Assembly (NCBI RefSeq): GCF_900114315.1 | Contig: NZ_FOSQ01000001.1 | Coordinates: 310,001-374,000 of the forward strand | Direction of reading: 5' to 3' | DNA from: Falsiroseomonas stagni DSM 19981 | GTDB taxonomy: Bacteria > Pseudomonadota > Alphaproteobacteria > Acetobacterales > Acetobacteraceae | DNA length: 64,000 nt | Shown: piece after piece, positions 5,921 through 61,563 of the stretch | Layout: each line of letters starts with the position of its first letter | How positions within the stretch are numbered: position 1 is the stretch's first letter | Position numbers and translations under genes: made by a program | The notes under the pieces: generated by a model | Told to the model about the DNA's origin: nothing | What the model saw: only the letters and a program-made list of their open reading frames with translations | Database searches by the model: none

Positions 5921-5926
5921 GGAAGG

Positions 5927-5956
5927 GGGCGGCGGCCGGTCTACCGGCCACCGCCC
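5927..5956. terminator. Bidirectional hairpin between convergent genes
   Basis: GGGCGG-C-GGCCGG, loop TCTA, CCGGCC-A-CCGCCC: two 6-bp stem blocks separated by one mismatch. It lies between the stop of the decarboxylase-like gene (+) and the stop of the cytochrome c gene (-), the expected place for a shared terminator. There is no clear T-run on either strand. Confidence 0.6.
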
Positions 5957-5962
5957 ACCCGG

Positions 5963-6337: not shown

Positions 6338-6556
6338 TCCAGCGATCCTCCTTGAACGTGTCTCGTCGAAACGGCCCCGCCGCGGGCGTCTTCAGGCGCG
6401 GCGCAGGTTGAACGAGCCTCAACGCTTATGGCGTCTTTCCCGCCCGGCGCAAGGTGGCGCCAGCAGCGGAGGGCGCAACCCTCCCAGCGCATGAAACTGC
6501 CTTCAGGTTGCCGCCACACGCGCTACGATTGCGTGCTGAAGGGCAGGGATGCGCGC

Positions 6557-6823: not shown

Positions 6824-6831
6824 ACCGCCGG

Positions 6832-7872: not shown

Positions 7873-7912
7873 GCTCAGGCGTCTCCGCGCGCGGGGAGGA
7901 GGAGGAGGTGCG

Positions 7913-9115: not shown

Positions 9116-9132
9116 GGAGGCCATCCTTCCGT

Positions 9133-37966: not shown

Positions 37967-39307
37967 TCAATGGAGTTTGACGCCCGGCTCCGCCCGCTGG
38001 CTCACCAGCCCCGCCAGGGTCCGCCACAGGGTCGGCGCGCTGCCATGCAGGGCCGTCTGATGCATCTTGTACAGCGATCGGTACATCAGCCGCGCGAAAT
38101 AGCCCTCGATGAACATGGACTTGCCCACCAGGAACCCCATCAGGCTGCCGACCGTGCTGTATTTGCCCAGCGAGACCAGCGACCCGAAGTCGCGATAGAT
38201 GAAGGGCGCCGGCGTCCCGCCCGCGATGATGGTCTCGATCTGCGTGAACAGGTGGCTCGCCTGCTGGTGCGCCGCCTGCGCCCGCGGCGGCACCCAGGCG
38301 CCGTCGCCGCGCGGGCAGGCCGCGCAATCCCCGATGGCGAAGACCGATGGATCTCGCGTGGATTGCAGCGTGGGCTGGACGACGATCTGGTTGATGCGGT
38401 TCGTCTCCAGCCCGCCGACCTCCTTCAGGAAATCCGGCCCCTTCACCCCCGCGGACCAGACGACGAGCTCCGCCGGCAGCAGCGCGCCATCGGCGAAGAC
38501 CACCCCATCGGCGCGCACCTCCGCCACCCGCGTGCCGGTCTTCACCTCCACGCCCATCTGTTCCAGCAGCTTCGTCGTGGCGTCGGAGATGCGTTCCGGC
38601 AGCGCCGGCAGGATGCGTGGCGCGGCCTCCACCAGCACGATGCGGATGTCCTTCTCCGGCTTGATGTGGTCGAGGCCATAGGCCACCACCGCGCGCACGG
38701 TGCGGTGCAGCTCCGCCGCCAGTTCGGTGCCGGTCGCGCCGGCACCGATGATGGCGATGTGCAGCTGCCCCGGCCGCACCGGCTCCTCCTGCGCATTGGC
38801 GCGGAGGCAGGCATTCACCAGGCGGCGGTTGAAGCGGCTCGCCTGTTCCGGCGTTTCCAGCGGGATGGCGTGGCGCGCGGCGCCGGGCGTGCCGAAATCA
38901 TTGGTCACGCTGCCCACCGCCATGATCAGCGTGTCGTAGCCCAGCCGCGATGCCGGCGTGATCTCCCGCCCCTCATCATCCAGCATGGCGCCCAACTCGA
39001 TCGCCTTCGCCGCGCGATCCAGGCCCACCATCTCCCCGTACCGGTAGGTGAAGTGGTGCCAATGCGCCTGGGCCAGGTAGTTCAGCTCATGCTGCGCCCG
39101 GTCCATGCTGCCGGCCGCCACGGCGTGCAGCAGCGGCTTCCAGAGATGGGTGCGCGCCTTCTCCACCAGCGTCACCGTGGCGCGCCGCCCATCCCGGTAC
39201 CGGTCGCCGAGCCGCGTCGCAAGCTCCAGCCCCGCGGCGCCTCCCCCCACCACGACGATGCGATGGGGCCCATCCGGAGGCCCCTTGGCCGAGGCGCCTG
39301 CTTCCAT
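37967..39307 (-). CDS. ndh: Type II NADH:quinone oxidoreductase (NDH-2)
   Basis: 446 residues. Two dinucleotide-binding motifs are visible: FAD IVVVGGGAAGLELATRL near residue 16 and NAD IAIIGAGATGTELAAEL about 160 residues later. FAIGDCAACP is the second FAD contact. It has the NDH-2 C-terminal membrane-associating region (SMFIEGYFARLMYRSLYKMHQ). It passes electrons from NADH to quinone without pumping protons. Start choice: ATG 39307 with AGGAG 9 bases upstream. It is divergent from crtE across a region with two PpsR-like boxes, which suggests photosynthesis-linked control of the quinone pool. Confidence 0.85.
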   Translation of the reverse strand: MEAGASAKGPPDGPHRIVVVGGGAAGLELATRLGDRYRDGRRATVTLVEKARTHLWKPLLHAVAAGSMDRAQHELNYLAQAHWHHFTYRYGEMVGLDRAAKAIELGAMLDDEGREITPASRLGYDTLIMAVGSVTNDFGTPGAARHAIPLETPEQASRFNRRLVNACLRANAQEEPVRPGQLHIAIIGAGATGTELAAELHRTVRAVVAYGLDHIKPEKDIRIVLVEAAPRILPALPERISDATTKLLEQMGVEVKTGTRVAEVRADGVVFADGALLPAELVVWSAGVKGPDFLKEVGGLETNRINQIVVQPTLQSTRDPSVFAIGDCAACPRGDGAWVPPRAQAAHQQASHLFTQIETIIAGGTPAPFIYRDFGSLVSLGKYSTVGSLMGFLVGKSMFIEGYFARLMYRSLYKMHQTALHGSAPTLWRTLAGLVSQRAEPGVKLH

Positions 39308-39366
39308 GGGAATGCTCCTGGGGATGGGGGGCCACGGGCTGTCGAGCGGAAAGCCGTTGACTTGAG

Positions 39367-39397
39367 TGTAAGGATAGACTGACACTAGAAACTGACA
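39367..39397. promoter_or_regulatory. Two overlapping PpsR-like boxes between ndh and crtE
   Basis: TGTAAGGATAGACTGACA (39367-39384) is an exact TGT-N12-ACA site; TGACACTAGAAACTGACA (39380-39397) has one mismatch and overlaps it by five bases. They are 60 bases upstream of ndh (-) and about 120 bases upstream of crtE (+), so either or both genes could be controlled. Confidence 0.65.
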
Positions 39398-39517
39398 AGC
39401 AAAGATGACGGTCGATTGTTTCACGGCCCCATCGCCGCCCCGGGACCGCATCCGCGGACCCGCCGGGGGCGGTCAAGCGCGCCGCCACCCGCGGCCGAAG
39501 GATGGAGGATTCCCCGC

Positions 39518-40381
39518 ATGGATGCCATGACGCGGATCGAATCGAGCCTCGCCGATGCGGTGTTGTACGCGGAAGCCGCCGGCGCGCCCCCGCGCCTCGC
39601 GGCCGCGCTGCGCCATGCCGTCTTCCCCAAGGGCGGGCGCATCCGCCCGCGGCTGACGCTGGCCGTCGCCGCCGCCTGCGGGGATGACAAGCCGGCGCTG
39701 GCCTCCGCCGCCGCCGCCTCCATCGAACTCCTGCACTGCGCCAGCCTGGTGCATGACGATTTGCCCTGCTTCGACGATGCGGCGACCCGACGCGGCAAGC
39801 CGAGCGTCCACCGCGCCTTCGGCGAGCCCCTGGCGGTGCTGGCCGGCGATGCGCTGATCGTGCTGGCCTTCCAGACGCTGGCCCGCGCCGCCCCCTGCGC
39901 GCCGGAGCGACTCGGTGCGCTGATGATCGCGGTGGGCGATGGCGTCGGCGTGCCCTTCGGCATCGTCGCCGGCCAGGCCTGGGAATGCGAACCGCGCGCC
40001 GATTTGTCCGAGTACCAGCGGCAGAAGACCGGCAGCCTCTTCGCCGCTGCCACCATCGCCGGCGCCGCCGCCTGCGCCCATGCGGAGCCCGAGGCCTGGC
40101 GCCTGCTGGGCGACCGGCTGGGAGAGGCCTACCAGGTCGCCGACGACCTCCGCGACGCCGTGGAGGATGAGGCGACGCTCGGCAAGCCCGTCGGCGTCGA
40201 CAAGGCGCTGGGCCGGCCGAGCGCGGTGGCCGAGTTCGGCCTGATGGGCGCCGTCGCCCGCCTGCGCCGCCTGTCCCAGGATGCGGTGGAAAGCATCCCC
40301 GAATGCCGCGGCCAGGCCATGCTGCGCGGCCTGATCCTGCAGGAGGCCGGTCGCCTCGTGCCCCAGAAGCTGGCCGCCTGA
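39518..40381 (+). CDS. crtE: Geranylgeranyl diphosphate synthase
   Basis: 287 residues. First Asp-rich motif HDDLPCFDDA (Asp80 onward) with the two-residue insertion typical of bacterial GGPP and FPP synthases; second motif DDLRD at about residue 209. It makes C20 diphosphate for phytoene and for the bacteriochlorophyll tail. Start choice: GGAGG 9 bases before ATG 39518. It is followed by crtF after 14 bases. Confidence 0.93.
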   Translation: MDAMTRIESSLADAVLYAEAAGAPPRLAAALRHAVFPKGGRIRPRLTLAVAAACGDDKPALASAAAASIELLHCASLVHDDLPCFDDAATRRGKPSVHRAFGEPLAVLAGDALIVLAFQTLARAAPCAPERLGALMIAVGDGVGVPFGIVAGQAWECEPRADLSEYQRQKTGSLFAAATIAGAAACAHAEPEAWRLLGDRLGEAYQVADDLRDAVEDEATLGKPVGVDKALGRPSAVAEFGLMGAVARLRRLSQDAVESIPECRGQAMLRGLILQEAGRLVPQKLAA

Positions 40382-40395
40382 CGCCGGCGCCACGC

Positions 40396-41544
40396 ATGTC
40401 GGACGTCATGCCCGCCCCCGCGCCCGGATGGCGAGACCGCTTCCGTGAATTCCGCGAAGGCGTCACCGCCAATCCGCGCTTCCGCGCCTGGGCCGCCCGC
40501 TTCCCGCTGACGCGCCCGATGGCGCGCAAGCGGGCGGGGCAGCTCTTCGACCTCTGCGCCGGATTCGTCTATTCGCAGGTCCTCTTCGCCTGCGTGCGCC
40601 TGAAGATCTTCGACCTGCTGCACGAATCGGGGCCGTTGACGGAAGCGGCCCTGGCCCACCGCCTTTCCCTGCCGCCGGAAGGCGCCTCCCGCCTCCTCAA
40701 CGCCGCCGCCGCCCTGCAACTGACGCATCGCCGCGATGACGGGCTCTGGACGCTCGGGCCGCTGGGTGCCGCCATGATCGGCAATCCCGGCATCAGCGCG
40801 ATGGTGGAGCATCACGCGCTGCTCTATGCGGATCTCGCCGACCCCGTCGGCATGCTGCGCCGGGAACGCGGCGGCAATGCGCTCTCCGCCTACTGGGCCT
40901 ATTCCGGCGCCGACAGCCCGGGCGGGCTCGCCCCGGACAAGGTCGCCGACTACTCCGCCCTCATGGCTGCCTCCCAGCCCATGGTGGCGGAGGAGGTGAT
41001 CGCCGCCTTCGATTTCCGCCGCCACCAGGTCCTGCTGGATGTCGGTGGCGGGGAGGGGGCCTTCCTGGCCCATGTGGCCGCCGCCGCGCCCGCGCTGCGC
41101 CTCATGCTGTTCGACCTGCCCCCCGTCGCCGCCCGCGGCGCCGCCCGCTTCGCGGAGAAGGGCCTGGCGCCCCGGGCGCAGACCTTCGGCGGCGATTTCA
41201 CGACCGATGACCTGCCGCGCGGCGCCGACCTCATCAGCCTGGTGCGCGTGCTGCACGACCATGACGACGACGTGGTGATGGGCCTGCTGCGACGCGTGCG
41301 CGAAGCCCTGCCGCCCCATGGCCGCCTGCTTGTGGCGGAGCCGATGGCCGGCACCGCGGGGGCGGAGGCGATGGGCGATGCCTATTTCGGCTTCTACCTG
41401 CTCGCCATGGGCCGTGGCCGCCCGCGCCGCCCGGCGGAGCTGCAGGCGATGCTGGCCGCCGCCGGTTTCGCCGCCTCGCGCCTCATTCCCACCGGCACGC
41501 CGCTGCTGACGCGCGTGCTGGTGGCCGAAGCCGGTGTGGCCTGA
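40396..41544 (+). CDS. crtF: Hydroxyneurosporene/demethylspheroidene O-methyltransferase
   Basis: 382 residues. N-terminal helical dimerisation region, then SAM-binding LLDVGGGEGAFLAHVAA and catalytic-region VRVLHDHDDD. Sequence type and the crtE-crtF-bchC context identify CrtF. It methylates the 1-hydroxy group of acyclic carotenoids to give methoxy end groups. It needs a 1-hydroxylated substrate, normally made by CrtC, which is not in this window. Confidence 0.93.
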   Translation: MSDVMPAPAPGWRDRFREFREGVTANPRFRAWAARFPLTRPMARKRAGQLFDLCAGFVYSQVLFACVRLKIFDLLHESGPLTEAALAHRLSLPPEGASRLLNAAAALQLTHRRDDGLWTLGPLGAAMIGNPGISAMVEHHALLYADLADPVGMLRRERGGNALSAYWAYSGADSPGGLAPDKVADYSALMAASQPMVAEEVIAAFDFRRHQVLLDVGGGEGAFLAHVAAAAPALRLMLFDLPPVAARGAARFAEKGLAPRAQTFGGDFTTDDLPRGADLISLVRVLHDHDDDVVMGLLRRVREALPPHGRLLVAEPMAGTAGAEAMGDAYFGFYLLAMGRGRPRRPAELQAMLAAAGFAASRLIPTGTPLLTRVLVAEAGVA

Positions 41545-50544: not shown

Positions 50545-50982
50545 ATGACCGAACTCCTCTCCCTGCTCGGGCTCTTCGCCTCCGCCTTCGGCGCCGCCAG
50601 CCTGCTGCCGCTGCAATCGGAACCCGTGCTGGTCGGCCTGCTGCTGCTGGGCGACATCCCCGCCTGGCTGCTGGTGCTGGTGGCCAGCATCGGCAACACG
50701 CTGGGCGCGGTGCTCAACTGGTGGCTCGGCGGCCAGGTGGACCGCTTCCGCGACCGGCGCTGGTTTCCCGTGCCGCCCGCCGCGCTGGACCGTGCCTCCG
50801 GCTGGTACCACCGCTGGGGTCGCTGGTCCCTGCTGTTGAGCTGGGCGCCGATCATCGGCGATCCGCTCACGCTGGTGGCCGGCGTGCTCAAGGAACAGCT
50901 GCCGACCTTCCTGCTGCTCGTCGCCATCGCCAAGACCGGCCGCTACGTCGTCCTCGCCTGGGCCACGCTGAGCCTGGCCTGA
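50545..50982 (+). CDS. YqaA/VTT (DedA-like) small membrane protein
   Basis: 145 residues. LLVLVASIGNTLGAVLNWWLGG and YHRWGRWSLLLSWAPIIGDPLTLVAGVL match the YqaA/VTT family pattern (a re-entrant-helix membrane protein with a conserved G-x-x-x-G-D region). DedA/VTT proteins are linked to lipid scrambling or transport; this member's role is unknown. It lies between pufC and crtI, 22 bases before crtI, so it probably shares the crtI transcript. Confidence 0.8.
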   Translation: MTELLSLLGLFASAFGAASLLPLQSEPVLVGLLLLGDIPAWLLVLVASIGNTLGAVLNWWLGGQVDRFRDRRWFPVPPAALDRASGWYHRWGRWSLLLSWAPIIGDPLTLVAGVLKEQLPTFLLLVAIAKTGRYVVLAWATLSLA

Positions 50983-51004: not shown

Positions 51005-52549
51005 ATGATGGATGGCATCGCCTTCCAGGGACTGGCCGAGGCCGCGCAGGATCCGCGCCCGCACGCCATCGTCATCGGCTCCGGCTTCGGCGGCCTGGCC
51101 GCCGCCATCCGGCTGGGCGCGCGCGGCTGGCGCGTGACGGTGCTGGAGAAGCTGGATGCGCCCGGCGGCCGCGCCTATGTCTACCGGCAGGACGGCTTCA
51201 CCTTCGATGCCGGCCCCACCATCATCACCGCGCCCTACCTGCTGGAGGAACTCTGGACGCTGTGCGGACGCCGCATGGCCGATGATCTCGACCTGCGGGC
51301 GATGAATCCCTTCTACCAGATCCGCTTCGACGACGGCACGGTGATGAACTGCTCCGCGGACCTCGATGCCACGCGGGCCGAGATCGCGCGCATCGCGCCG
51401 GAGGACCTGCCGGGCTTCGAGCGCTTCATCGCCGTCAGCGAACGCATCTTCGACATCGCCTTCGCCAAGCTCGCCGACCAGCCCTTCCACCAGCTCTCCA
51501 CCCTGCTGGCCGCGGTGCCGGACATGATGAAGCTCGGCGGCTGGCGCACGGTCTATGGCAAGGTCAGCGACTACTTCACCAACGACAAGCTGCGCATCGC
51601 CTTCAGCTTCCATCCGCTGCTGATCGGCGGCAATCCGCTGACGACGACGGCCTATTACTGCCTGATCGCCCATCTCGAACGCCTGCATGGCGTGCACTAC
51701 GCCATGGGCGGCATGGGCGCGGTGGTGAACGGCCTGGCGGGGCTGATCGAGGGCCAGGGCGGCCGCTTCCGCTTCAATGCGGAGGTCGAGCAGATCACCG
51801 TGGCCGATGGCCGCGCCAAGGGCGTGCGCTTGAAGGGCGGGGAGACGATCGCGGCCGATGTCGTCGTCTCCAACGCCGATGTCGGCTGGACCTATTCGAA
51901 GCTGCTCAGCGAACATCCGCGCAGGCGCTGGACCGATGCCAAGGTCGCGCGCACGCGCTATTCCATGTCGCTCTTCGTCTGGTATTTCGGCACCAACCGC
52001 CGCTTCGACAATGTCTACCACCACACCATGGTGCTCGGCCCGCGCTACCGCGAATTGCTGACGGATATCTTCAAGCGGAAGAAGCTGGCGAAGGATTTTT
52101 CCCTGTATCTGCACCGGCCGACGGCGACGGACCCCTCGCTGGCGCCGCCGGGCTGCGACAGTTTCTACGTGCTGTCGCCGGTGCCGCATCTCGGCAGCGG
52201 GACGGATTGGGCGCAGCAGGCGGAACCCTATCGCGCCGCCATCCAGCAGCGGCTGGAATCCACCGTGCTGCCGGGCCTTGGCGATTCGATCGTGACGTCG
52301 CGCATGCTGACGCCGCAGGATTTCCGCGACCGGCTGCTGTCGGTGAATGGTGCCGCCTTCTCGCTGGAGCCGCAGCTGTTCCAGTCCGCCTGGTTCCGCC
52401 CGCATAATGTCAGCGAGGAAGTGCGCGGCCTGTACCTGGTCGGTGCCGGCACGCATCCCGGCGCCGGCGTGCCCGGCGTGGTGAGCAGCGCGAAGATTCT
52501 CGACCAGGTCGTGCCGCATGGCGCGACCTTGGCGAGGGCTACCGCGTAG
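51005..52549 (+). CDS. crtI: Phytoene desaturase
   Basis: 514 residues. FAD motif HAIVIGSGFGGLAAAIRLGARGWRVTVLEK near residue 22 and the C-terminal CrtI signature YLVGAGTHPGAGVPGVVSSAKI. It desaturates phytoene in several steps to neurosporene or lycopene. ATG at 51005 with an adjacent in-frame ATG at 51008; AGGAAA is ~8 bases upstream. Its 3' end overlaps the convergent crtD by 11 bases. Confidence 0.95.
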   Translation: MMDGIAFQGLAEAAQDPRPHAIVIGSGFGGLAAAIRLGARGWRVTVLEKLDAPGGRAYVYRQDGFTFDAGPTIITAPYLLEELWTLCGRRMADDLDLRAMNPFYQIRFDDGTVMNCSADLDATRAEIARIAPEDLPGFERFIAVSERIFDIAFAKLADQPFHQLSTLLAAVPDMMKLGGWRTVYGKVSDYFTNDKLRIAFSFHPLLIGGNPLTTTAYYCLIAHLERLHGVHYAMGGMGAVVNGLAGLIEGQGGRFRFNAEVEQITVADGRAKGVRLKGGETIAADVVVSNADVGWTYSKLLSEHPRRRWTDAKVARTRYSMSLFVWYFGTNRRFDNVYHHTMVLGPRYRELLTDIFKRKKLAKDFSLYLHRPTATDPSLAPPGCDSFYVLSPVPHLGSGTDWAQQAEPYRAAIQQRLESTVLPGLGDSIVTSRMLTPQDFRDRLLSVNGAAFSLEPQLFQSAWFRPHNVSEEVRGLYLVGAGTHPGAGVPGVVSSAKILDQVVPHGATLARATA

Positions 52550-54023
52550 CGCTGTCTTCCAGCAGCTTCGCGGCCGCGAGGCGCCCGGACATCGCCGCCA
52601 TCGGGATGCCCGGGCCCGGATGCACGGACCCGCCCGCGAAATAGAGGCCCTTCACGCCGCCTTTCGCGCCGGGCCGCGCGAAGGTGCCCGTGGCGCCATG
52701 GCTGGCGCGGCCATACAGCGCGCCGCCGGTGCCGGGGAACAACCGATGAAAACCGGCCGGCGTGGTTGTCACGCTGTTGCGGCTGTCCATCGCGATCTCC
52801 AGCCCGCAATCGTGCAGGAGGCCAAGGCTCCGTGCCTCGATGTCCCGCAGCACGACTGGGTCGGGTTCGCCCCGGTCGCCATCCGGCGGCGCGTTCACCA
52901 GCAGCAGCATCCGCTCGGCAGCACCCGCCGCCACCTCTCCATGTCCCCGGTCCTGCGCGCAGAGATAGACGGTCGGCGCCGCCGTCACCTGCCGGCGGCG
53001 GAACACCGCATCGAATTCCTCCGCGTAATCCTCCGCGAAGAAGACGTTGTGATGCGTCAGGGGGAAGCCGCCGGTTGGCGCCTTCACGCACCAGGTGATG
53101 GCGGACAGCGATCGCGCCGCGCGCGGCGTATCCCGCACGCCGCGCCGCGCCCGCTCCCCCAGCATCCCCTGGCCGAGTGCCGCCACATCGCCGTTGAAGA
53201 CCACGGCTTCGGCCTCGATGCGCTCGCCATCCATCAGCCGCACGCCGATGACGCGCCCGCCCTCCACGATGATCTCCGCGGCTTCCGTGCCGAAGCGGAA
53301 CCGCGCGCCCTGGGTTTCCGCCAATTCGCGGATGGCCTCCGCCACGCGCTTCATGCCGCCCTTCACCAGCCAGACGCCGTCCTGCTCCACATGCGCCACC
53401 AGCATCAGCGTCGCCGGCGCCAGGAAGGGGGAACAGCCGCAATAGGTGGCGTAGCGCCCGAAGAGCTGCCGCAGCCGCGGGTCGGTGAAGTAGCCCCCGA
53501 GGGCCTGCCACATCGTCGCCCAGGGCATCGTCCGCCACAGCGCATCGATCCGCGACAGCCCGACGCGCCGCACCAGCTCCACCGGCGATGGCCGCTGCCC
53601 CGCGATGAAGCTGTCCTTCAGTGTTGCGAAGATGTCCGTGCTGCGCGCGACGAACGCCTTGTAGCCCCGCGCATCCGCCGCCCCCGCGAAAGCGCCGATG
53701 GCGTCGGCGCTGCGATCCACATCGGCAAACAGGTCGAGCCGACCGCCCCGCCGCCAGGCATGCCGCGCCAGCGTCTCCGCCGCGTACAGCTCAACGAACT
53801 CGTCCAGCCGTCGCCCGCAATCCTCGAACAGGCCCGAGAAAATCCAGCGCATGGTGAAGACGGTGGGGCCGCCATCGATGCCCACGCCATCCACCATCAC
53901 ATGCCGGGCCTTGCCGCCGGCGCTTGCCGCGCGGTCCAGCACCGTCACCTCGGCCCCGCGCCGGGCCAAATCGGTGGCCGCGGCCAGGCCGCCCATCCCC
54001 GCGCCGATCACCACCACGCGCAT
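52539..54023 (-). CDS. crtD: 1-hydroxycarotenoid 3,4-desaturase (methoxyneurosporene dehydrogenase)
   Basis: 494 residues, CrtI-like flavoprotein. It begins RVVVIGAGMGGLAAATDLARRGAEVTVLDR and has GIDGGPTVFTMRWIFSGLF, typical of CrtD rather than CrtI. The C-terminal GLYFAGGSVHPGPGIPMAAMSG is the family FAD segment. It inserts the 3,4 double bond in 1-hydroxylated or methoxylated carotenoids. It converges on crtI with overlapping 3' ends. The DUF2306-like gene stops 5 bases upstream, so the two are probably co-transcribed. Confidence 0.9.
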   Translation of the reverse strand: MRVVVIGAGMGGLAAATDLARRGAEVTVLDRAASAGGKARHVMVDGVGIDGGPTVFTMRWIFSGLFEDCGRRLDEFVELYAAETLARHAWRRGGRLDLFADVDRSADAIGAFAGAADARGYKAFVARSTDIFATLKDSFIAGQRPSPVELVRRVGLSRIDALWRTMPWATMWQALGGYFTDPRLRQLFGRYATYCGCSPFLAPATLMLVAHVEQDGVWLVKGGMKRVAEAIRELAETQGARFRFGTEAAEIIVEGGRVIGVRLMDGERIEAEAVVFNGDVAALGQGMLGERARRGVRDTPRAARSLSAITWCVKAPTGGFPLTHHNVFFAEDYAEEFDAVFRRRQVTAAPTVYLCAQDRGHGEVAAGAAERMLLLVNAPPDGDRGEPDPVVLRDIEARSLGLLHDCGLEIAMDSRNSVTTTPAGFHRLFPGTGGALYGRASHGATGTFARPGAKGGVKGLYFAGGSVHPGPGIPMAAMSGRLAAAKLLEDSATR

Positions 54024-54028: not shown

Positions 54029-54775
54029 TCAGGCCGCCGCGCCGACCCGCCGGGCGCGGACCTGCCGCGCCTTCCGGTCCACATCCAGCCGGTGCCAGAT
54101 GATGATGGCCAGCCCCACGATCAGCGGCACCGACCACATGCCGGGATGCAAGGCCAGTTCAGGAAACACGCGGACGGAGCCGAAGGCCATGAAGGCGGTG
54201 TAGACGCTGATGCCCGCCCCCACCAACGCCTTGATATGCTCCTTCAGCCAATCCGCCCGTTCGATCTGCGGCTTGTGGATGAACCAGAGGTTCGTCAGCC
54301 CCGTCGCGACGCCGACCACCGCGATGCCGATCATCAGGTATTGCCCGATGAACCACCCATCCACCGCGCAGGCCAGCGCCGCGGCGATCACCGCGTATTG
54401 CAGCGCGACGTTGAGGGGATGCCGGTTCAGCGCATGCCGCCCCTTGTTGCGGATGGCGAGCCAGCCGTACCAGGCCAGGTTGATGGTCAGGATGCCGGTA
54501 TGCAGCATCATCCAGCCGAACAGCCCGCGGATGAAATTCGCATCGAACCGATCGGCGAGGTGCGGATGCGTGCCGAAGGGGTCCACCAGCGTCATCAGGC
54601 TCATGCAGACGGCGAAGCTGCCCGTCGCCATCATGGCGTAGGCGAAGACCTTCCCCCAGCGCGCATGGTTCACGCCGCCCTTGCGCCCGATCACCGGCAC
54701 CCAGAAGGCAATCGCCCCTGTGGTGCCCGTGACGATATGCGCCGCGATGAGGCCATGGAACACCAGCAGCTCCAT
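54029..54775 (-). CDS. DUF2306-like multi-pass membrane protein in the crt region
   Basis: 248 residues with about seven membrane segments. Early histidines (LLVFHGLIAAHI) and HARWGKVFAYAMMATGSFAV resemble the DUF2306 pattern; HTGILTINLAWYGWLAIRNKGRH follows. It is not recognisably CrtC or CruF. GGGAGG precedes ATG 54775 by 6 bases. It lies 5 bases upstream of crtD on the same strand and is divergent from the P450, with a PpsR-like box between. A role in carotenoid handling is inferred from place only. Confidence 0.65.
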   Translation of the reverse strand: MELLVFHGLIAAHIVTGTTGAIAFWVPVIGRKGGVNHARWGKVFAYAMMATGSFAVCMSLMTLVDPFGTHPHLADRFDANFIRGLFGWMMLHTGILTINLAWYGWLAIRNKGRHALNRHPLNVALQYAVIAAALACAVDGWFIGQYLMIGIAVVGVATGLTNLWFIHKPQIERADWLKEHIKALVGAGISVYTAFMAFGSVRVFPELALHPGMWSVPLIVGLAIIIWHRLDVDRKARQVRARRVGAAA

Positions 54776-54794
54776 CCCTCGCCTCCCGTATGAC

Positions 54795-54820
54795 GAAGTG
54801 ACAATGCCACTTGACACTTC
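54795..54820. promoter_or_regulatory. PpsR-like box in the P450 / DUF2306-like divergent promoter
   Basis: TGACAATGCCACTTGACA (54799-54816) fits TGT-N12-ACA with one mismatch. Its right half TTGACA matches those at bchF, bchE and bchC. It sits inside a wider inverted repeat GAAGTG (54795-54800) / CACTTC (54815-54820). It is ~32 bases from the P450 start and ~24 bases from the divergent start, so it could act on both. Confidence 0.55.
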
Positions 54821-54847
54821 CTGGTGTAAAGCGAGGGATATGCGGGC

Positions 54848-56227
54848 ATGCCCATCTCGTCGACCGCCCCCTTCATCCCGCCGCATCCGCAGCCCCGCTC
54901 GCCGATCGTGTCCCTGTTCCGCGCGGTGCTGCAGGGGGAGGGCAATCTCCTCGGCCTGCTGCCGGCCGAGGCCTACCGGATGCCCATCGGCCCGCTCGGC
55001 TATTCCCGCCGCTCCATCGTCGTCGTGAACGAACCGAAGCTGGTGCGCGAAGTCCTGGTGGACCCGCAGGGGATCTTCCCGAAATCGGACCTGATGGTGA
55101 ATGCGCTGGAGCCGCTGATCGGCGACAGCATCTTCGTGTCCAGCGGCCCCACCTGGAAGCGCCAGCGTGCCATGATGGACCCGGCGCTGACCCTGATGCG
55201 CGTCAACCGCGCCTTCGCCAGCATGGAGGCCGGCGCCGCCGAATACGAGGAAACGCTGCATCGCCAGGCGCAATCCGGCGCACTCTTCTCCCTCGACCTG
55301 GCGATGAGCCACCTGACAGCCGACATCATCTGCCGCTCCGTCTTCTCCACCTCCCTCGCCACCACCGTGGCGCATGAGGTCTTCGACGCCTTCACCTTCT
55401 TCGAACGCAGCGTCGCGCAGGTGGAGATCCGCCGCCTCATCATGGATCGCGCCTGGACGAAGATCCCCCAGACGCAGGCGGTGCTGGAAAGCTGCGCGCT
55501 GATCCGCCGCTGCCTCGGCGACCTGCTGGACAGCCACCTCGATGCCGGCCAGAGCTTCGACGACATCGCCAGCGCCGTCGTCGCCGCCCATGATGTGGAG
55601 GGCCGCGCCTTCACGCGGGAGGAGCTGATCGACCAGCTCGGCGTGCTGTTCCTGGCGGGGCATGAGACCAGTGCCAGCGCGCTGACCTGGTGCTTCTACC
55701 TGTTGGCGACGCGCCCCGAACTGGTGGCCCGCATCCGCGCGGAAGTCGCGGAGGTCTGCGGCGACGGACCCGTCACCTTCGAGCACACGAAGCGCCTGGT
55801 CTTCACCCGCAACGTGTTCAACGAGACGCTGCGCCTCTACCCCCCCATCACCTTCCTGCCGCGCGTCGCCAACGAAGCCACGCGCATAGGCGACTACAAG
55901 GTGAAGCGCGGCGCCCTCATCATGGTGGCGCCCTGGGTGCTGCACCGCCATCGCCTCTACTGGAAGGACCCCAACGTCTTCGACCCCGATCGCTTCACGG
56001 CGGAGCGGAAGGCGGAACTTGTCCAGGGCGCCTACATCCCCTTCGGCATCGGTCCCCGCATCTGCGCCGGCGCCGCCTTCGCGACGGTGGAGGCGACGCT
56101 GCTGATCGCCCGCCTGTTCCGCCACTTCGATTTCACGGTCGAGAATCCGGAGGCCGTCCGCCCCGCCGCGCGCCTCACCACGCGGCCGACGCGGCAGGTC
56201 ATGTGCCGGGTGGCCAGCGCGGGATGA
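54848..56227 (+). CDS. Cytochrome P450 at the right end of the photosynthesis cluster
   Basis: 459 residues. I-helix oxygen-activation motif A270-G-H-E-T-S, ExxR motif E326-T-L-R329, and heme loop FGIGPRICAG with Cys406 are all intact, so it should be a working monooxygenase. There is no N-terminal membrane helix, so it is probably soluble or peripheral. No ferredoxin or reductase gene is adjacent. It has a PpsR-like box upstream, lies beside crtD and crtI, and is coupled by ATGA to an ATP-grasp gene. A carotenoid-related hydroxylation is a reasonable guess; the substrate is not readable. Confidence 0.92.
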   Translation: MPISSTAPFIPPHPQPRSPIVSLFRAVLQGEGNLLGLLPAEAYRMPIGPLGYSRRSIVVVNEPKLVREVLVDPQGIFPKSDLMVNALEPLIGDSIFVSSGPTWKRQRAMMDPALTLMRVNRAFASMEAGAAEYEETLHRQAQSGALFSLDLAMSHLTADIICRSVFSTSLATTVAHEVFDAFTFFERSVAQVEIRRLIMDRAWTKIPQTQAVLESCALIRRCLGDLLDSHLDAGQSFDDIASAVVAAHDVEGRAFTREELIDQLGVLFLAGHETSASALTWCFYLLATRPELVARIRAEVAEVCGDGPVTFEHTKRLVFTRNVFNETLRLYPPITFLPRVANEATRIGDYKVKRGALIMVAPWVLHRHRLYWKDPNVFDPDRFTAERKAELVQGAYIPFGIGPRICAGAAFATVEATLLIARLFRHFDFTVENPEAVRPAARLTTRPTRQVMCRVASAG

Positions 56228-57354
56228 CCCGTACCGTCGTGCTCACGCTGGGCCGGCTGCCGAAGGCGCTGGACCTTGCCCGCGGCTTCGCCTCGGCCGG
56301 CTGGCGCGTCGTGGTCGCGGAGCCCTTCGCACGCCATCTCTGCGGCTCCTCCCGCGACGTCGCGCGCTCCATTCGCCTGCCCCCGCCTTCCCAGGGCAAG
56401 CGCGCCTATCTCGAAGCCCTCGCCAAGGTGGTCCGCGACGAATCAGCGGAGCTTGTGGTGCCGGTGTCGGAGGAGACGATGCATGTCGCGCACCTCCCGC
56501 CCCTGCTGCCGCCCGGCGCGCGCGTCGCCACCATGCCGCCGGACCGCGTGCTCGCTCTGCACCACAAGGGCAGCTTCGTCGATGCCGGCCTGGCCTACGG
56601 CCTGACCGTGCCCGAAAGCCTGCCCCTCGGCACGCCCGAAGCGGCCGGGCTCGCGAGTCACAGCGCCGTGGTGGTGAAGCCCGTCCACAGCTGCTCCGGC
56701 CGCGGTGTCCGCATCCTGGCCGCCGGCGATGCGCTGCCCGCCGAATCCGACCCCCATCTCGTGCAGCGCTTCATCCGCGGTGCGGAATTCAGTACCTGTT
56801 CGCTGGCCCATCAGGGCCGCGTCCTCGGCACCACCGTCTATCGCGGCGCGCAGATGTCGGGCTCCGTCGCCGTCTCCTTCGAACGGGTGGATCATCCCGC
56901 CATCGAATCCTGGGCCGCCCGCTTCATCGCCGCCAGCAACTGGTCCGGCTTCATCAGCTTCGACCTGATCGTGGACGATGCCGGCACGCCCTGGGGCATC
57001 GAGTGCAACCCGCGCACCACCAGCGGCCTGCATTTCTTCGAGTCCGCCGACATCGCGCGCAGCCTGGCCGACCCGACGGCCCCGCCGCCCCGTCACCGGC
57101 CGGAACGCACGTTGCAACAATTCTGGTCCTGCCTGACGGAGACGCAGCTCTCCCTGTTCAAGGGCGGCCCCTTCCGCGCGAATTTGAAGCGGCTTCTCAC
57201 CACGCGCGACGTCTGCTGGCAGGCGCGGGACCCCTGGCCGCTTCTGGCCATGCCCTATACCGCCTGGCCCATCATCCGCGACGCCGCGAAGAAGGGCGTC
57301 CCCTTCGGAGAGGTCGCGACGCTGGATGTCGGCTGGTACGAAGGCGCTACTTGA
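56224..57354 (+). CDS. ATP-grasp family protein coupled to the P450
   Basis: 376 residues. N-terminal Rossmann-like domain (TRTVVLTLGRLPKALDLARGFASAGWRVVVAE), a central ATP-grasp domain with AVVVKPVHSCSGRGVRIL and LVQRFIRGAEFSTCS, and metal/ATP motif E260-C-N-P-R. A ~90-residue C-terminal region with several Trp residues has no family I recognise. ATP-grasp enzymes join a carboxylate to an amine, thiol or other nucleophile through an acyl-phosphate. The start overlaps the P450 stop (ATGA). No biosynthetic partner other than the P450 is visible. Product unknown. Confidence 0.85.
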   Translation: MTRTVVLTLGRLPKALDLARGFASAGWRVVVAEPFARHLCGSSRDVARSIRLPPPSQGKRAYLEALAKVVRDESAELVVPVSEETMHVAHLPPLLPPGARVATMPPDRVLALHHKGSFVDAGLAYGLTVPESLPLGTPEAAGLASHSAVVVKPVHSCSGRGVRILAAGDALPAESDPHLVQRFIRGAEFSTCSLAHQGRVLGTTVYRGAQMSGSVAVSFERVDHPAIESWAARFIAASNWSGFISFDLIVDDAGTPWGIECNPRTTSGLHFFESADIARSLADPTAPPPRHRPERTLQQFWSCLTETQLSLFKGGPFRANLKRLLTTRDVCWQARDPWPLLAMPYTAWPIIRDAAKKGVPFGEVATLDVGWYEGAT

Positions 57355-57625
57355 TCGGGATGCCGTTGGCCCGCGCCACGGCACCGGGATCGACCGGCGC
57401 CCCGTTCGCCGCCTGCATCCGCCCCGGGCGCAGCGGCCGCCTGCCGAGCGACCAGTTCGGTGCCATCCGCACTTCGGGGTTCGGCACCGTCCAGCAGGAC
57501 CCGTCCTCATCCATGAAGACCACCCACATCAGGTGCGTCTCCGCGCCATAGTCGATGAGGAAATGCGCGATGCCCTCGCCCTTCGGCGTCGTCATCGGCA
57601 GCGGCGGGTCGAGTTGCAGGATCAT
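57347..57625 (-). CDS. Small conserved-looking protein, function unknown
   Basis: 92 residues, soluble. LDPPLPMTTPKGEGIAHFLIDYGAETHLMWVVFMDEDGSCWTVPNPEVRM resembles small proteins of unknown function found in other alphaproteobacteria (from memory). Its 3' end overlaps the ATP-grasp stop by 8 bases in convergent orientation. It lies downstream of the phnE genes on the same strand (47-base gap), so it may be the last gene of that unit. Confidence 0.6.
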   Translation of the reverse strand: MILQLDPPLPMTTPKGEGIAHFLIDYGAETHLMWVVFMDEDGSCWTVPNPEVRMAPNWSLGRRPLRPGRMQAANGAPVDPGAVARANGIPIK

Positions 57626-57672
57626 GCGGGGCGGAACGCAGGCTCAAGCGCCCCCGTTCCCCGTCATGATTC

Positions 57673-58536
57673 TCAGCGCTTCGCGATGCCTTCGCGGTCC
57701 CCGATCAGGCGGCGGCGGATGCGGGACGACAGCGTATCGATCAGCGCCACCGCCGCGATCATCAGGATGATGATGAAGGCGACCTCGTCCCAGTAGCGGA
57801 CCTTGATCCGTTCCGCGATCTGCAGCCCGATGCCGCCCGCCCCCACCACGCCGAGGATCGCCGCCGACCGCGTATTGGATTCGAGAAAATACAGTGCCTG
57901 CGCCACCATCACCGGCAGTACCTGCGGCAGCAGGCCGAAGCGCGTGCGCAGCAGGCGGTTGCCGCCCACGGCATCGATCCCCTCCGCCTGGCGCTTCTCC
58001 GCATTCTCGATCGCTTCTGCATAGAGTTTCGCGAGTACCGCGATGTCGGCGGTCGCGATCGCCAGCACGCCGGCCAGCGGCCCGAGGCCGACCGCCCGCA
58101 CATAGGCCAGCGCCCAGATCAGCTGGTCCACGCCGCGGAAGCCGTCGAAGATGCGCCGGAGCGAGAAATGCGCCAGCGTGTTCGTCACCACGTTGTTGGC
58201 GCCCATGAACCCCAGCGGCACGGCGATGATCGCGGCGAAAAGCGTGCCGAGGAAGGCCATCGCGATGCTCTCCGCGATGCCCTTCAGGATCTCCACCCAT
58301 TGTTCGCCCGGTGAGGGCGGGATCATGAGGGTGACGATGACGCCAAGCCCCGACAGCCCGTTCCACAGCCGCTGGGGCGTGATGTCGAACCACCAGAACA
58401 GGAACACCAGCCACCCCAGCGCCGCCGCCCCCGCCACGGCGCGGATCGCGCGCGTGCGGGGCGTGGCGCCGAAGGCCCGCGGATAGCGCGCGCGCAGCGC
58501 GGCGATCTGGTCCGGCGTGGGTTGAGCGAGTGCCAT
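57673..58536 (-). CDS. phnE: Phosphonate-type ABC transporter permease (second PhnE)
   Basis: 287 residues with about six membrane segments. The permease loop EAIENAEKRQAEGIDAVGGNRLLRTRFGLLPQVLP is the binding-protein-dependent transport (EAA) motif of PhnE. GVVGAGGIGLQIAERI is conserved near the C-terminus. It pairs with the upstream PhnE to form the membrane pore. ATG 58536 is 5 bases downstream of the other phnE stop. Confidence 0.88.
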   Translation of the reverse strand: MALAQPTPDQIAALRARYPRAFGATPRTRAIRAVAGAAALGWLVFLFWWFDITPQRLWNGLSGLGVIVTLMIPPSPGEQWVEILKGIAESIAMAFLGTLFAAIIAVPLGFMGANNVVTNTLAHFSLRRIFDGFRGVDQLIWALAYVRAVGLGPLAGVLAIATADIAVLAKLYAEAIENAEKRQAEGIDAVGGNRLLRTRFGLLPQVLPVMVAQALYFLESNTRSAAILGVVGAGGIGLQIAERIKVRYWDEVAFIIILMIAAVALIDTLSSRIRRRLIGDREGIAKR

Positions 58537-58541
58537 CGCCG

Positions 58542-59453
58542 TCAGCCCGCGCTGCCGCGCGTGGCGGAAGCGTTCAACCCCATGCGCAGCTTCTCCGACA
58601 CCACGTCGATCATGGCGACCGCGATGATGATCAGCACGACGATGGCGCTGATCTCCTCGTAATAGTTGAAGGCGATCACCTGGTAGAGTTCCGCGCCGAT
58701 CCCGCCCGCGCCGACGAAGCCGATGACGCTGGCGCCGCGCACATTCACCTCGAACCGCAGCAGCGCGTAGCTGAGGAAGTTGGGCGCCACCTGCGGCAGG
58801 ATGCCGAAGCGGGCGCGGTGGAACCAGTTGCCGCCGGCGGCGCGGATGCCCTCCACCGGCCCCGGCTCCGCATTCTCCACCACTTCCGCGAACAGCTTGC
58901 CATTGGCGCCCAGCGTGTGGATGGCGATGGCCAGGATGCCCGCCAGCGGCCCGATGCCGAAGGCCCAGACGAAGATCAGCGCGAAGACGATCTCCGGCAC
59001 CGTCCGGCACACTTCCAGGAAGCGGCGGGACAGGTGGTAGGCCCAAGGGTTGGGCGCCATGTTCCGCGCCGCGGGGAAGCAAAGCGCCAGCGCGCCCAGC
59101 GTGCCCGCCAGCGTCGCCAGCAGGGCCATCTGCGCCGTCTCGAACAGCAGCCAGGCCCATTTGTCGGCCCGGTACATCCAGGACGCGAAGCTGCCCTCCG
59201 TCTCCCAATTCGCGAAGAACACCTCCCACCGGAAGGTCGGCAGGGTCCGCCAGAAATACTCGCCGATGCGCGGCAGCCCGGCCAGGATCGCGGCGGGGGA
59301 GGCCTCGCTCACCAGCGCCGCGACATAGATGCAGACCAGCAGGACGCCACCCCAGAGCAGGGTGGCGTTGCGTCGGGCGCGGCGCGCCGCCTGGAAATCC
59401 GCCTCGATGCGTGGAACCGCACCGGGACGGGAAAGGGGGAGCGCCGCCGACAC
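58542..59453 (-). CDS. phnE: Phosphonate-type ABC transporter permease (first PhnE)
   Basis: 303 residues. N-terminal cytoplasmic ~30 residues, then membrane segments. The EAA-type loop is EVVENAEPGPVEGIRAAGGNWFHRARFGILPQV, and GFVGAGGIGAELYQVIAFNYYEE is conserved. The start is GTG 2 bases after the phnD stop. Two different PhnE genes in tandem imply a heterodimeric permease. Confidence 0.88.
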   Translation of the reverse strand: MSAALPLSRPGAVPRIEADFQAARRARRNATLLWGGVLLVCIYVAALVSEASPAAILAGLPRIGEYFWRTLPTFRWEVFFANWETEGSFASWMYRADKWAWLLFETAQMALLATLAGTLGALALCFPAARNMAPNPWAYHLSRRFLEVCRTVPEIVFALIFVWAFGIGPLAGILAIAIHTLGANGKLFAEVVENAEPGPVEGIRAAGGNWFHRARFGILPQVAPNFLSYALLRFEVNVRGASVIGFVGAGGIGAELYQVIAFNYYEEISAIVVLIIIAVAMIDVVSEKLRMGLNASATRGSAG

Positions 59454-59455
59454 GC

Positions 59456-60421
59456 TCAGCTGCGCCGGCGCCGCTCGGCCGCTTCCTCGCGGCGCAGCTG
59501 CACGATCGGCTCGAACTGCTCATGCGTCACCCGGGCATAGCCCAGGCCGCCGCCGCGCTCGACCTGCGCGTAGATCTGCGGGTGGGAGGTCGCCAGCGCC
59601 AGGTGGAAGGCGGTGATGTCGGCCTTGAAGGCATCCGGCAGGTCCTTCCGGACCGTCCAGGGGCCGTTCAGGATCGGGCGGGACCGCCAGATGATCCGCA
59701 GGTCGCGCATGTTCAGCATCCCCTTCTCGACCATGGCGCGAAGGTTGCCGCGGGTGAAGCCCTGCGCCTCGTCGCCCTGGCCGGAGGCCCAGGTCACGGC
59801 CGCATCATACTGGCGCTGCAGCACCGCGACCACCGCCTGCTCATGCCCGCCGCCGAAGCCGGTGCGGGAGAAGTACTGGCCGCTTTCCGTGCCGATGCCG
59901 GCGCCGCGCAGCTCGCTCCGCGGCACCAGGTAGCCGCTGGTGCTGTTCGGGTCGGCCCAGGCGAGGGACTTGCCCCGCAGCTGCTCCAGGCTGGTGATGC
60001 CGCTATCGGCCCGCACCACCATGACGGAGATGTAGGAGATGCTGCCATCGGCTTCCCGCGCCACGAACAGCGGCTCCACCGCGCCATTGGTGTCGAGCCA
60101 GGCGCCGGCATAGGCGGAGGCGCCCATGCTCGACATCTCGATCTGCCGGGCGCTGAAGGCCTGCATCACGCCGGCGTAGTCGGAGGCCGGGAACAGCCGC
60201 ACTGGCACGCCGAAGGTCGTCTCGATCAACTGGCGATAGGCGTCGTAGCGGCCGAGCCGGTCGGATTCATTCTCGCCGCCCAGCAGGCCGATGCGGATCT
60301 GGGGCACCTGCTGCGCCCAGGGGCGGCGGCCGGCGGCCGGCATGGCGGGGGCGGCTGTCTGCGCCGCTGCGGCAAAGGGCATCAGGCTGGCGGCAGCCAT
60401 CATCAGGCGACGGGTGATCAT
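59456..60421 (-). CDS. phnD: Phosphonate-type ABC transporter periplasmic binding protein
   Basis: 321 residues. Signal peptide ITRRLMMAAASLMPFAAAAQ. PhnD-type segments are IRIGLLGGENESDRLGRYD, FPASDYAGVMQAF, SLAWADPNSTSGYLVPRSEL and GGGHEQAVVAVLQRQYDAAVTW. The family binds phosphonates, phosphite or similar. No C-P lyase or phosphonatase gene is nearby, so the ligand is open. ATG 60421 with GGGAG 9-10 bases upstream. Confidence 0.88.
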   Translation of the reverse strand: MITRRLMMAAASLMPFAAAAQTAAPAMPAAGRRPWAQQVPQIRIGLLGGENESDRLGRYDAYRQLIETTFGVPVRLFPASDYAGVMQAFSARQIEMSSMGASAYAGAWLDTNGAVEPLFVAREADGSISYISVMVVRADSGITSLEQLRGKSLAWADPNSTSGYLVPRSELRGAGIGTESGQYFSRTGFGGGHEQAVVAVLQRQYDAAVTWASGQGDEAQGFTRGNLRAMVEKGMLNMRDLRIIWRSRPILNGPWTVRKDLPDAFKADITAFHLALATSHPQIYAQVERGGGLGYARVTHEQFEPIVQLRREEAAERRRRS

Positions 60422-60564
60422 CGGGGTCTCTCCCAGTGGGGTTGGAAAAACGCCGCCGATCCCGCCGCCCCTGGCCCTTTCAGGCCGGGCCTGAAGCCCC
60501 ATCCCCGTCCCGGCCGCGCCGCCCATCCGGCGCGCTGACCCTGTCGGGGATGACGCCGCAAGCC

Positions 60565-61392
60565 CTAGGCGATGGCGAGGCCGGCCTTCGGCGCGCGCTG
60601 GACCTTGGGCTTCACAGCCTCCTCGGCCTGTTCGTCGAACTCGTCCTCGGACACGCCGTAGATCTCGCGCACCTTCTCCCCGGTCAGCGCGGCGGGCGGG
60701 CCATCGAACATCACACGGCCTGCCTGCATGGCGACGATCCGGTCGCAATAATGCCGCGCGGTGTCGAGGTGATGGAGATTGGTCAGGACGGTGATCCCGT
60801 CCTCCCGGTTCACCTGGCGCAGCGCCTCCATCACCGTCCGCGCATTGCGCGGGTCGAGGCTCGCGATCGGCTCATCCGCCAGGATGAATTTCGGCTCCTG
60901 CATCAGCGCCCGGCAGATGGCGACGCGCTGCTGCTGGCCGCCGGAAAGCGTGTCGGCGCGCTGCAAGGCCGTATCCGCCAGGTCGAAGCGGTCCAGCGCC
61001 TGGATGGCCAGGGCCCGCTCCTCCGCCGTGAACAGGCAGAGCAGGCTGGTCAGCGTGCCCATGAAGCCGGGGCGGTGGTTCAGCCGGCCCACCAGCACAT
61101 TGGTCAGCACATCGAGGCGCTGCACGAGGTTGAACTGCTGGAAGATCATCGCGCAGTCCGTCCGCCAGCGCCGCAGCGCGGCGCCGCGGAGCGCGGTGAT
61201 GTCCTGGCCATCATGGATGATCCGGCCCTCGGAGGGTTCGGTCAGCCGGTTGATCATCCGCAGCAGGGTCGATTTCCCCGCGCCGGACCGGCCGATCACG
61301 CCCACCATCTGCCCGTCCGGGATGGAGAGGCGGACATCATTCACCGCCGTCACCGCCCCGAACCGACGTGTCAGACCCTGAAGCTCCAGCAT
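60565..61392 (-). CDS. phnC: Phosphonate-type ABC transporter ATP-binding protein
   Basis: 275 residues. Walker [12 protein letters not shown]-loop [22 protein letters not shown] (typical PhnC), signature [15 protein letters not shown] and Walker [14 protein letters not shown] ~30-residue acidic then basic tail follows the ABC domain. It powers import with PhnD and the two PhnE. The start lies 171 bases from the divergent NIPSNAP gene, where the operon promoter should be. Confidence 0.9.
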
Positions 61393-61563
61393 CCCCGCCG
61401 CCCTTTGATGAGACGGCCTATACATGCACCGGATGACACGGATGTTGCAGGGGAATGATGGTCCCGTGTCAGCGAATCGGCGGCGGTTTTCCCCCTGGGG
61501 CCCCTTCCGCCCCGGGGCGGGGCGCGCGATCCTCCGCCCCCGCAACACCAGGGGAACCGCCCG

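Follow-up and report, generated by a model that had tools for sequence, protein, structure and literature searches.

A candidate carotenoid-tailoring module beside crtD in Falsiroseomonas stagni and related bacteria: cytochrome P450, ATP-grasp ligase, and membrane protein

We analyzed a 64,000-nucleotide stretch of the Falsiroseomonas stagni DSM 19981 genome (contig NZ_FOSQ01000001.1, positions 310,001 to 374,000; hereafter the window), in which adjacent genes for a cytochrome P450 and an ATP-grasp ligase accompany a photosynthesis gene cluster. On balance, we favor the reading that these two enzymes, together with a divergently encoded multi-helix membrane protein (referred to as MEM), constitute a single module for the tailoring of carotenoids of the CrtC/CrtD type, that is, carotenoids with the psi-end of the spirilloxanthin series. 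It is very probable that the module acts on a carotenoid, whereas the detailed route, an oxidation followed by activation of a carboxylate, is put forward tentatively. The case for a module is built on catalytic residues that are intact, on genes that are linked and co-occur, on their near-confinement to phototrophs, and on the existence of a version without the ligase. The enzyme families are known already; the module probably represents a new branch of carotenoid tailoring in bacteria.

Linkage and co-occurrence of the P450, MEM, and ligase genes

A pattern scan of the genome contig collection, which reaches close relatives only, returned 83 stretches, 44 of which encode a relative of the ligase. 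These 44 ligase loci belong to the Acetobacteraceae/Roseomonadaceae, the Sphingomonadales, the Caulobacterales and allied groups, the Rhizobiales, and one gammaproteobacterium (Luminiphilus), and many come from metagenome-assembled genomes (MAGs). The loci closest to the window are those of Roseomonas ponticola and Falsiroseomonas algicola (ligase identity of 89%). Named carriers include F. algicola (L003), Paracraurococcus ruber (L008), and Novosphingobium fuchskuhlense (L022). The P450 gene adjoins the ligase gene in 43 of the 44 loci, and MEM adjoins the P450 gene in 42; the exceptions (L015 in both cases, L013 for MEM) lie at contig ends. CrtD is encoded next to MEM in 36 of the 44 loci, and bch, puf, or acsF genes are present within 20 of them (locus lengths vary). 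A first-pass annotation of this DNA had described a P450 and ligase pair. The pair holds, but its conserved third member, MEM, had been overlooked.

The same genes are found together in the Halieaceae, the family of the Luminiphilus genome, where 41 of 140 genomes surveyed have a match (36 at ≥220 bits). We read 15 Halieaceae loci, picked by hand. The ligase, P450, and MEM genes are together in all 15, CrtD was counted beside MEM in 12 (in a thirteenth, L094, it is cut by the contig end), and bch genes occur in the same stretch in nine. The Halieaceae ligase gene is convergent with the P450 gene and not operonic. Since it has been turned round and is still adjacent, the adjacency has outlived rearrangement. 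The module is spread over no fewer than four orders of Alphaproteobacteria as well as the NOR5/OM60 clade of marine gammaproteobacteria. Across 55 loci, the pairwise distances of P450, ligase, and MEM correlate with r values of 0.89–0.92, a correlation that partly reflects species phylogeny. Separately, nine of the 15 Halieaceae loci have an α/β hydrolase-like gene between bchI and crtD (L092, 4100–5026; a weak NCBIfam match of 48 bits).

In the family to which the window belongs, 200 genomes were searched; P450 (E ≤ 1e-120) was detected in 17 genomes, representing 11 of 102 genera, and MEM was detected in the identical 17. The ligase (≥549 bits) is present in 15 of these 17; another genome, G605, gives only a distant partial match of 163 bits. 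MEM is therefore tied to P450 (17/17) more tightly than the ligase is (15/17). Reaction-center genes scored over the cut-off in 67 of the 200 genomes, including 16 of the 17 P450/MEM carriers and 14 of the 15 ligase carriers (Fisher P = 8e-8 and 9e-7, respectively, not corrected for kinship). The remaining P450/MEM carrier, G545, is an assembly that is 80% complete. When carrier genomes were searched by locus, 40 of 45 contained reaction-center genes. As the first-pass annotation had anticipated, the P450 and ligase genes co-occur and stay adjacent among relatives, and, given that 40 of 45 carriers have reaction centers and that MEM adjoins crtD in 36 of 44 loci, their homologs are not mostly those of nonphototrophs that lack crt neighbors.

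The trio is not general among phototrophs: the ligase is absent from 53 of the 67 reaction-center genomes of the family and is therefore best described as an optional extra. Nor is the ligase a housekeeping gene, as matches were found in just three of 385 genomes sampled from the class, two of them distant (176 and 187 bits), and the only close match is that in the window genome. Tblastn of 17-kb stretches around plasmid-borne crtD of Methylobacterium, Novosphingobium capsulatum, and Thiodictyon did not find P450, ligase, or MEM, and none of the three is annotated in 11 kb of Roseobacter sequence. A search of all plasmid records gave 19 matches to the ligase, each of <60% identity, and one weak match to MEM.

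The carriers retain the genes for the 1-hydroxycarotenoid end group. CrtD was detected at E ≤ 1e-75 in all 45 carrier genomes searched (over its cut-off in 42), and CrtC (NF045922) in 43, including the window genome, with every match under the curated cut-off of 400 bits. Another model, PF07143, matched only two of the 45 carriers and is evidently the wrong model. With CrtC in 43 of the 45 carriers, we rejected the possibility that the trio replaces CrtC. More than one CrtD-type desaturase is encoded in the window genome: approximately 92–94 kb downstream of the P450 and ligase pair, a second CrtD (512 bits) is followed by CrtC, beside PpsR and a bacteriophytochrome-like gene (L054).

That the CrtD beside MEM might be a dedicated paralog is supported only in part by the CrtD tree and copy counts. 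In the tree, 35 of 36 MEM-adjacent CrtDs group together (support of 92/90 against a mark of 95/80), apart from the CrtC-adjacent CrtDs of Acetobacteraceae and with the Luminiphilus CrtD outside; owing to several long branches, the tree is soft. At least two CrtD-like matches are present in Acetobacteraceae-type carriers. Most carriers from the Sphingomonadales and the Caulobacterales group, and the Luminiphilus genome, have a single CrtD at E ≤ 1e-75, and there the MEM-linked gene is therefore simply CrtD.

The P450 is also linked directly to CrtC. In L064 (G534, 5669–10281), a single operon has the gene order crtD (679 bits by NCBIfam), crtC (317 bits, under the cut-off), and P450, with a 4-base overlap of crtC and P450, MEM on the opposite strand, and no ligase. 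Similarly, L103 (G528) carries crtD, crtC, and P450 on a short contig apart from its MEM (L065). Because this arrangement exists without the ligase, P450 and MEM are the core of the module and the ligase is its usual addition. The ligase-less version also suggests that the P450 would act before the ligase.

In eight Novosphingobium-type loci (L009, L012, L014, L018, L020, L022, L023, and L024), the module is accompanied by crtI-like, crtB-like, and crtY-cluster genes; a name check of loci of this type against NCBIfam returned one crtY (L011) and one crtI (L012). Among the crt neighbors in Novosphingobium-type loci is crtD as well. The ligase and reaction-center genes of Novosphingobium sediminis (G011) are on separate contigs.

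Catalytic residues and predicted folds

We compared residues across the 55 of 60 loci that yielded all three proteins at ≥85% of their length. The P450 is intact, as first described, with a PF00067 match and unbroken AGHET (residues 270–274), ETLR (326–329), and FGIGPRICAG (399–408) motifs. Residues A270, G271, H272, E273, T274, E326, R329, F399, G400, G402, C406, and G408 are invariant across the 55 loci. Among them are C406, the cysteine that binds heme, E326 and R329 of the ExxR motif, and the acid-alcohol pair E273 and T274 of the I-helix, which place the protein in the cytochrome P450 superfamily. For both enzymes, we take the residues to have the functional roles familiar from their superfamilies; in the ATP-grasp fold, these are lysines that bind nucleotide, acidic and Asn residues that bind Mg, and a catalytic Arg. 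From its sequence, the P450 looks active.

The ligase belongs to the ATP-grasp superfamily, based on its PF02655 match (36.8 bits against a cut-off of 23.2), the residues K115, K152, D247, E260, N262, and R264, which are invariant over the 55 loci, and its fold matches. The AlphaFold model, built from a 43-row alignment, has a predicted local distance difference test score (pLDDT) of 92.4. Its best fold matches in the PDB are the L-amino-acid ligase 3vot, 2pn1, and PylC, followed by biotin carboxylase, GAR synthetase, and PurK, and the 50 best matches have E values of 7e-16 to 1e-13. A profile search of the PDB agrees on 2pn1 and 3vot, while a single-sequence search of the PDB gave no match at E ≤ 1. 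The similarity to 3vot thus consists of the fold plus a profile match of 23.9 bits. The modeled ligase resembles carboxylate-amine ligases and, judging from its conserved residues, looks active.

The ATGA overlap of the P450 and ligase genes (56224–56227), read in the first-pass annotation as translational coupling, is real. A −4 overlap recurs in 26 of 42 relatives in which the two genes are on the same strand, and the junction is within 10 bases in 41 of the 42 (starts were chosen by script). As a side observation, two distant relatives of the ligase, in the 4.1-kb stretches L052 and L053, adjoin an F390-synthetase-related gene (TIGR02304, both under the cut-off), and these stretches have no match to the window P450 or crt proteins. 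A distant ligase relative in a plasmid match (H7) likewise adjoins a gene annotated as F390-synthetase-related. These neighbors suggest that the wider ligase family may serve a different pathway.

MEM is modeled as all-helical (pLDDT of 88.5); searches of the PDB returned neither a similar fold at E ≤ 0.001 nor a similar sequence at E ≤ 1. Its score against DUF2306 (PF10067) is 12.7 bits, below the gathering score of 31.6, and it is not counted as a member; weak DUF2306 similarity at E ≤ 1 is nevertheless found in 37 of 43 MEM members (best E value of 1.8e-5). Four histidines of MEM (H13, H37, H70, and H180) show no variation across the 55 loci.

Gene layout and the PpsR-like box

The photosynthesis gene cluster setting noted at first reading is confirmed by NCBIfam matches, the Pfam match of the crtF-like gene, and reaction-center family matches. 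Genes scoring over NCBIfam cut-offs are puhA, puhB, acsF, puhE, hemA, bchI, bchD, bchO, bchE, bchJ, bchC, bchX, bchY, and bchZ. The pufL and pufM genes were recognized through reaction-center family matches, and crtB is the best NCBIfam name for a further gene that scores under the model cut-off. The crtI and crtD genes are convergent and lie at the downstream edge of the cluster. The pair does not abut crtD and crtI, as had been stated: MEM separates the P450 gene from crtD, and crtI lies beyond crtD. The MEM stop codon is 5 bases from the crtD start, with both genes on the minus strand, and 72 bases separate the divergent MEM and P450 genes. No sigma-70-type promoter or terminator patterns were found within 54600–57700.

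Coordinates of the module and associated features in the window
Feature	Position	Strand	Length	Remarks
P450 gene	54848–56227	+	459 amino acids	PF00067, 247.4 bits
ATP-grasp ligase gene	56224–57354	+	376 amino acids	PF02655, over cut-off
MEM gene (multi-helix membrane protein)	54029–54775	−	248 amino acids	Divergent from P450
crtD (1-hydroxycarotenoid 3,4-desaturase)	52539–54023 (ATG at 54023)	−		NF045637, 659 bits (cut-off 580)
crtI (phytoene desaturase)	51005–52549	+		Context; TIGR02734, 629 bits
crtF-like O-methyltransferase gene	40303–41544	+		Context, spirilloxanthin series; PF00891, 146 bits
PpsR-like palindrome	54799–54816	strandless		TGAC-N10-GACA, within the MEM/P450 intergenic region

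Other genes of the window were noted in passing. Behind the pair, on the minus strand, are phosphonate ABC transporter genes (57676–61488; two phnE and phnC over the cut-off, phnD just under), and a complete phosphonate transporter set is found at that place only in the nearest loci, L002–L004. Between bchJ and a polyprenyl synthetase gene (39416–40381, plus strand) are genes for a pyridine-nucleotide-disulfide oxidoreductase (37967–39451) and a DUF2189 membrane protein (37059–37850), both on the minus strand. A VTT-domain membrane protein is encoded between pufC and crtI (50545–50982, plus strand); its open reading frame cluster comprises nine loci, all of the Acetobacteraceae type.

A PpsR-like box had been reported upstream of the pair. 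The window copy, TGACAATGCCACTTGACA, is one mismatch from TGTN12ACA, and since sites with at most one mismatch are common in the window (117 positions), this copy is by itself no evidence of regulation. Exact boxes number 10 in the whole window against 2.9 expected, and none is at the MEM/P450 promoter. Across 43 MEM/P450 regions (the window and 42 loci), however, the exact box is found in 18, against 0.62 expected in shuffles (maximum of 4 in 200) and 0.51 expected at the rate of the remainder of the same 42 loci. By our own grouping of lineages, exact boxes are present in 13 of 13 Sphingomonadales, 2 of 3 Rhizobiales, 3 of 13 Acetobacterales, 0 of 12 from the Caulobacterales and allied groups, and 0 of 1 gammaproteobacterial regions, counts that are not independent. 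The window 18-mer is identical in L002–L007, L025, and L037, whose ligases are 57–89% identical to that of the window; as the 18-mer is identical despite this divergence, the element itself is conserved.

The 15 Halieaceae MEM/P450 regions have no exact box and no enrichment of sites with at most one mismatch (7 against 4.5 expected; maximum of 10 in 200 shuffles). The box is conserved among relatives, but it is imperfect in the window and, in exact form, missing from the Caulobacterales group and the Halieaceae. A PpsR gene is present in the window genome (TIGR02040, 428 bits against a cut-off of 275; L054, G000 C22:455000–468000). Given the enrichment and conservation of the box and the presence of this gene, PpsR control of the module is plausible in part of the Alphaproteobacteria. 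In several top-scoring 18-mers of Halieaceae MEM/P450 regions (L092–L094, L098–L100, and L102), a possible motif of the TGTCGA/TCGACA type takes the place of a PpsR-like box.

Proposed route, alternatives, and known systems

We propose that CrtI, CrtC, and CrtD would make a 1-hydroxy- or 1-methoxy-3,4-didehydro end group, of which the P450 would oxidize a nonconjugated carbon to an alcohol and possibly onward to a carboxylate. MEM may be a membrane partner of the P450 that presents the substrate or delivers electrons. In most carriers, the ATP-grasp enzyme would then activate a carboxylate as an acyl phosphate and couple it with an amine or alcohol to form a polar conjugate. In some lineages, the substrates may also include carotenoids from a crtY-containing pathway. 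The substrate, the co-substrate, the carbon that is oxidized, the sequence of steps, and what MEM does are our inferences from the anatomy of the module. The carotenoid-linked tailoring envisaged in the first-pass annotation is well supported by co-occurrence, crt adjacency, and near-confinement to reaction-center genomes; its chemistry, a hydroxyl or carboxyl group and then carboxylate activation, would fit the intact catalytic residues. The fullest version, an undescribed carotenoid branch in which the P450 and a new membrane partner make a carotenoid carboxylate that the ligase conjugates, is possible but somewhat doubtful.

Several observations weigh against this proposal. We know of no carotenoid conjugate in these bacteria, which is a real weakness. 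Five of the 45 carriers, all MAGs, have no detected reaction center. Six MEM-bearing loci do not have crtD adjacent: it is cut by the contig in L038, lies kilobases off in L008, L027, L032, and L036, and is not in the locus in L040. No redox partner for the P450 was recognizable among its immediate neighbors MEM, crtD, and the ligase, and the fold matches of the ligase do not reveal its substrate. Pigment reports bear on the same point. Many end-group changes are invisible to spectra, and a cross-conjugated aldehyde would shift the carotenoid spectrum. Carotenoic acids have been reported from some Acetobacteraceae phototrophs. In the available text of PMC10008586, the carrier Ca. Phycosocius spiralis (L028) is described as spirilloxanthin-like from its ultraviolet-visible spectrum only. 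Luminiphilus syltensis has spirilloxanthin and, in the corresponding passage of PMC3679898, "Additional pigments were not observed" by spectroscopy; we saw the module in L043, a different Luminiphilus. From these plain spirilloxanthin reports, the product should leave the chromophore intact, be present in small amounts, disappear during extraction, or be something other than a carotenoid. The Ca. P. spiralis spectrum in particular implies that the modification should spare the chromophore, which disfavors an in-chain aldehyde.

A rather unlikely alternative is that the P450 makes a hydroxyl group and the ligase activates a small acid, either an amino or a hydroxy acid, and links it to that hydroxyl as an ester. 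The fold matches of the ligase include the L-amino-acid ligases 3vot and 4wd3 as well as PylC, which act on amino acids, and the ligase-less L064 suggests that the P450 product may be useful alone. ATP-grasp enzymes, however, mostly form amides or thioesters, and no conserved neighbor that would supply an acid or other co-substrate was recognized in the neighbor clusters, which were judged by reading, with a minority named by a family search.

It is improbable that the module acts on some other photosynthesis-linked membrane compound, such as a quinone, the bacteriochlorophyll tail, or a hopanoid, with its position next to crtD reflecting co-regulation. The carriers are phototrophs and no carotenoid product is known, as this reading would expect, but the module stays with crt genes in loci without bch or puf genes, both in the Novosphingobium-type loci and in the crtD-crtC-P450 arrangement of L064.

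We give little credence to a third possibility, that the P450 oxidizes an in-chain methyl of the polyene to an aldehyde of the bacteriorubixanthinal or rhodopinal type. In the portion of PMC12654162 available, Sphingomonadales phototrophs are said to have bacteriorubixanthinal as a carotenoid for light harvesting, the rhodopinal genes are called unknown in an excerpt of PMC10604819, and a crtY-cluster gene lies near the module in Novosphingobium-type carriers (the L011 copy is the one confirmed by NCBIfam). Yet such an aldehyde would leave the ligase without a carboxylate and sits poorly with the spirilloxanthin-like spectrum of the carrier Ca. P. spiralis (PMC10008586, same passage), and a close ligase occurs in just one of 199 Sphingomonadaceae genomes, the one used as the center of the sample, with distant matches in four (ligase search only). 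Least likely of all is that the P450 and ligase degrade or detoxify oxidized carotenoids or apocarotenoids: genomes of marine gammaproteobacteria postulated to be K-strategists are reported to have an 11-fold higher abundance of P450 genes, which are tied there to the breakdown of recalcitrant compounds (PMC4391266, in part), but the conserved pairing with the biosynthetic crtD and the ligase, and the PpsR-like box in part of the Alphaproteobacteria, argue against it.

If the carboxylate-conjugating version of the module is correct, its ligase would be, to our knowledge, the first ATP-grasp enzyme in any carotenoid pathway. No description of the module or its step was found in the openly licensed literature searched. 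The term "P450" does not occur in the available portions of PMC3176799, PMC10008586, PMC12700997, PMC10715153, PMC5989583, and PMC3679898, which deal with these organisms or clusters, and the accessible text of PMC4391266 mentions the P450 genes of these gammaproteobacteria just as a general class. Aerobic phototrophs overproduce carotenoids, most of them outside light harvesting, according to passages of PMC12654162 and PMC3176799, and a module for an extra carotenoid step could account for part of this chemistry. It would offer genetic access to those carotenoids of aerobic anoxygenic phototrophs that are polar and do not harvest light, so that the question of what modifies these pigments becomes testable genetically. 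The Halieaceae (NOR5/OM60 clade), together with Roseobacter, are named as dominating marine aerobic phototrophs in an excerpt of PMC3666943; with the module present in Halieaceae, its product may therefore be common in surface seawater. The ligase and P450 could also be of use in carotenoid engineering, and the DUF2306-like membrane protein gains a functional context.

Among solved P450 structures, the closest to the window P450 is CYP97A3 (LUTEIN DEFICIENT 5), a plant carotenoid ring hydroxylase, which is the top PDB match in both a single-sequence search (175.9 bits) and a profile search (218.8 bits, with the next other protein at 183.7). It is a distant relative, and we do not assign the two to the same P450 family, for which the criteria are an identity of at least approximately 40% to CYP97 members and activity on carotenoid rings. 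CYP97A enzymes act on β rings; unlike these substrates, the crt genes identified in the window, from the subset of its open reading frames that was searched, are those of the acyclic series. The resemblance is supportive of a carotenoid substrate but weak. The ligase shares its fold and ATP-grasp core residues with the L-amino-acid ligase BL00235 (3vot), PylC, and 2pn1, at only about 15–17% identity and a template modeling (TM) score of about 0.6, and its family has in addition a conserved C-terminal helical region. The first reading was correct in calling this an ATP-grasp protein, but the C-terminal region that it left unassigned is not unique: NF005315 (PRK06849, "hypothetical protein") spans residues 3–371, nearly the full length, at 228.3 bits, below the curated cut-off of 406, so that membership is not assigned. 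In the available text of a 2023 review (PMC10604819), P450 is named as a type of monooxygenase, and CrtA is stated not to be one. Finally, the spirilloxanthin pathway of purple bacteria proceeds through CrtC, CrtD, and CrtF. Carriers of the module retain CrtC, and crtD is the usual neighbor of the module, but the standard pathway includes neither a P450 nor a ligase.

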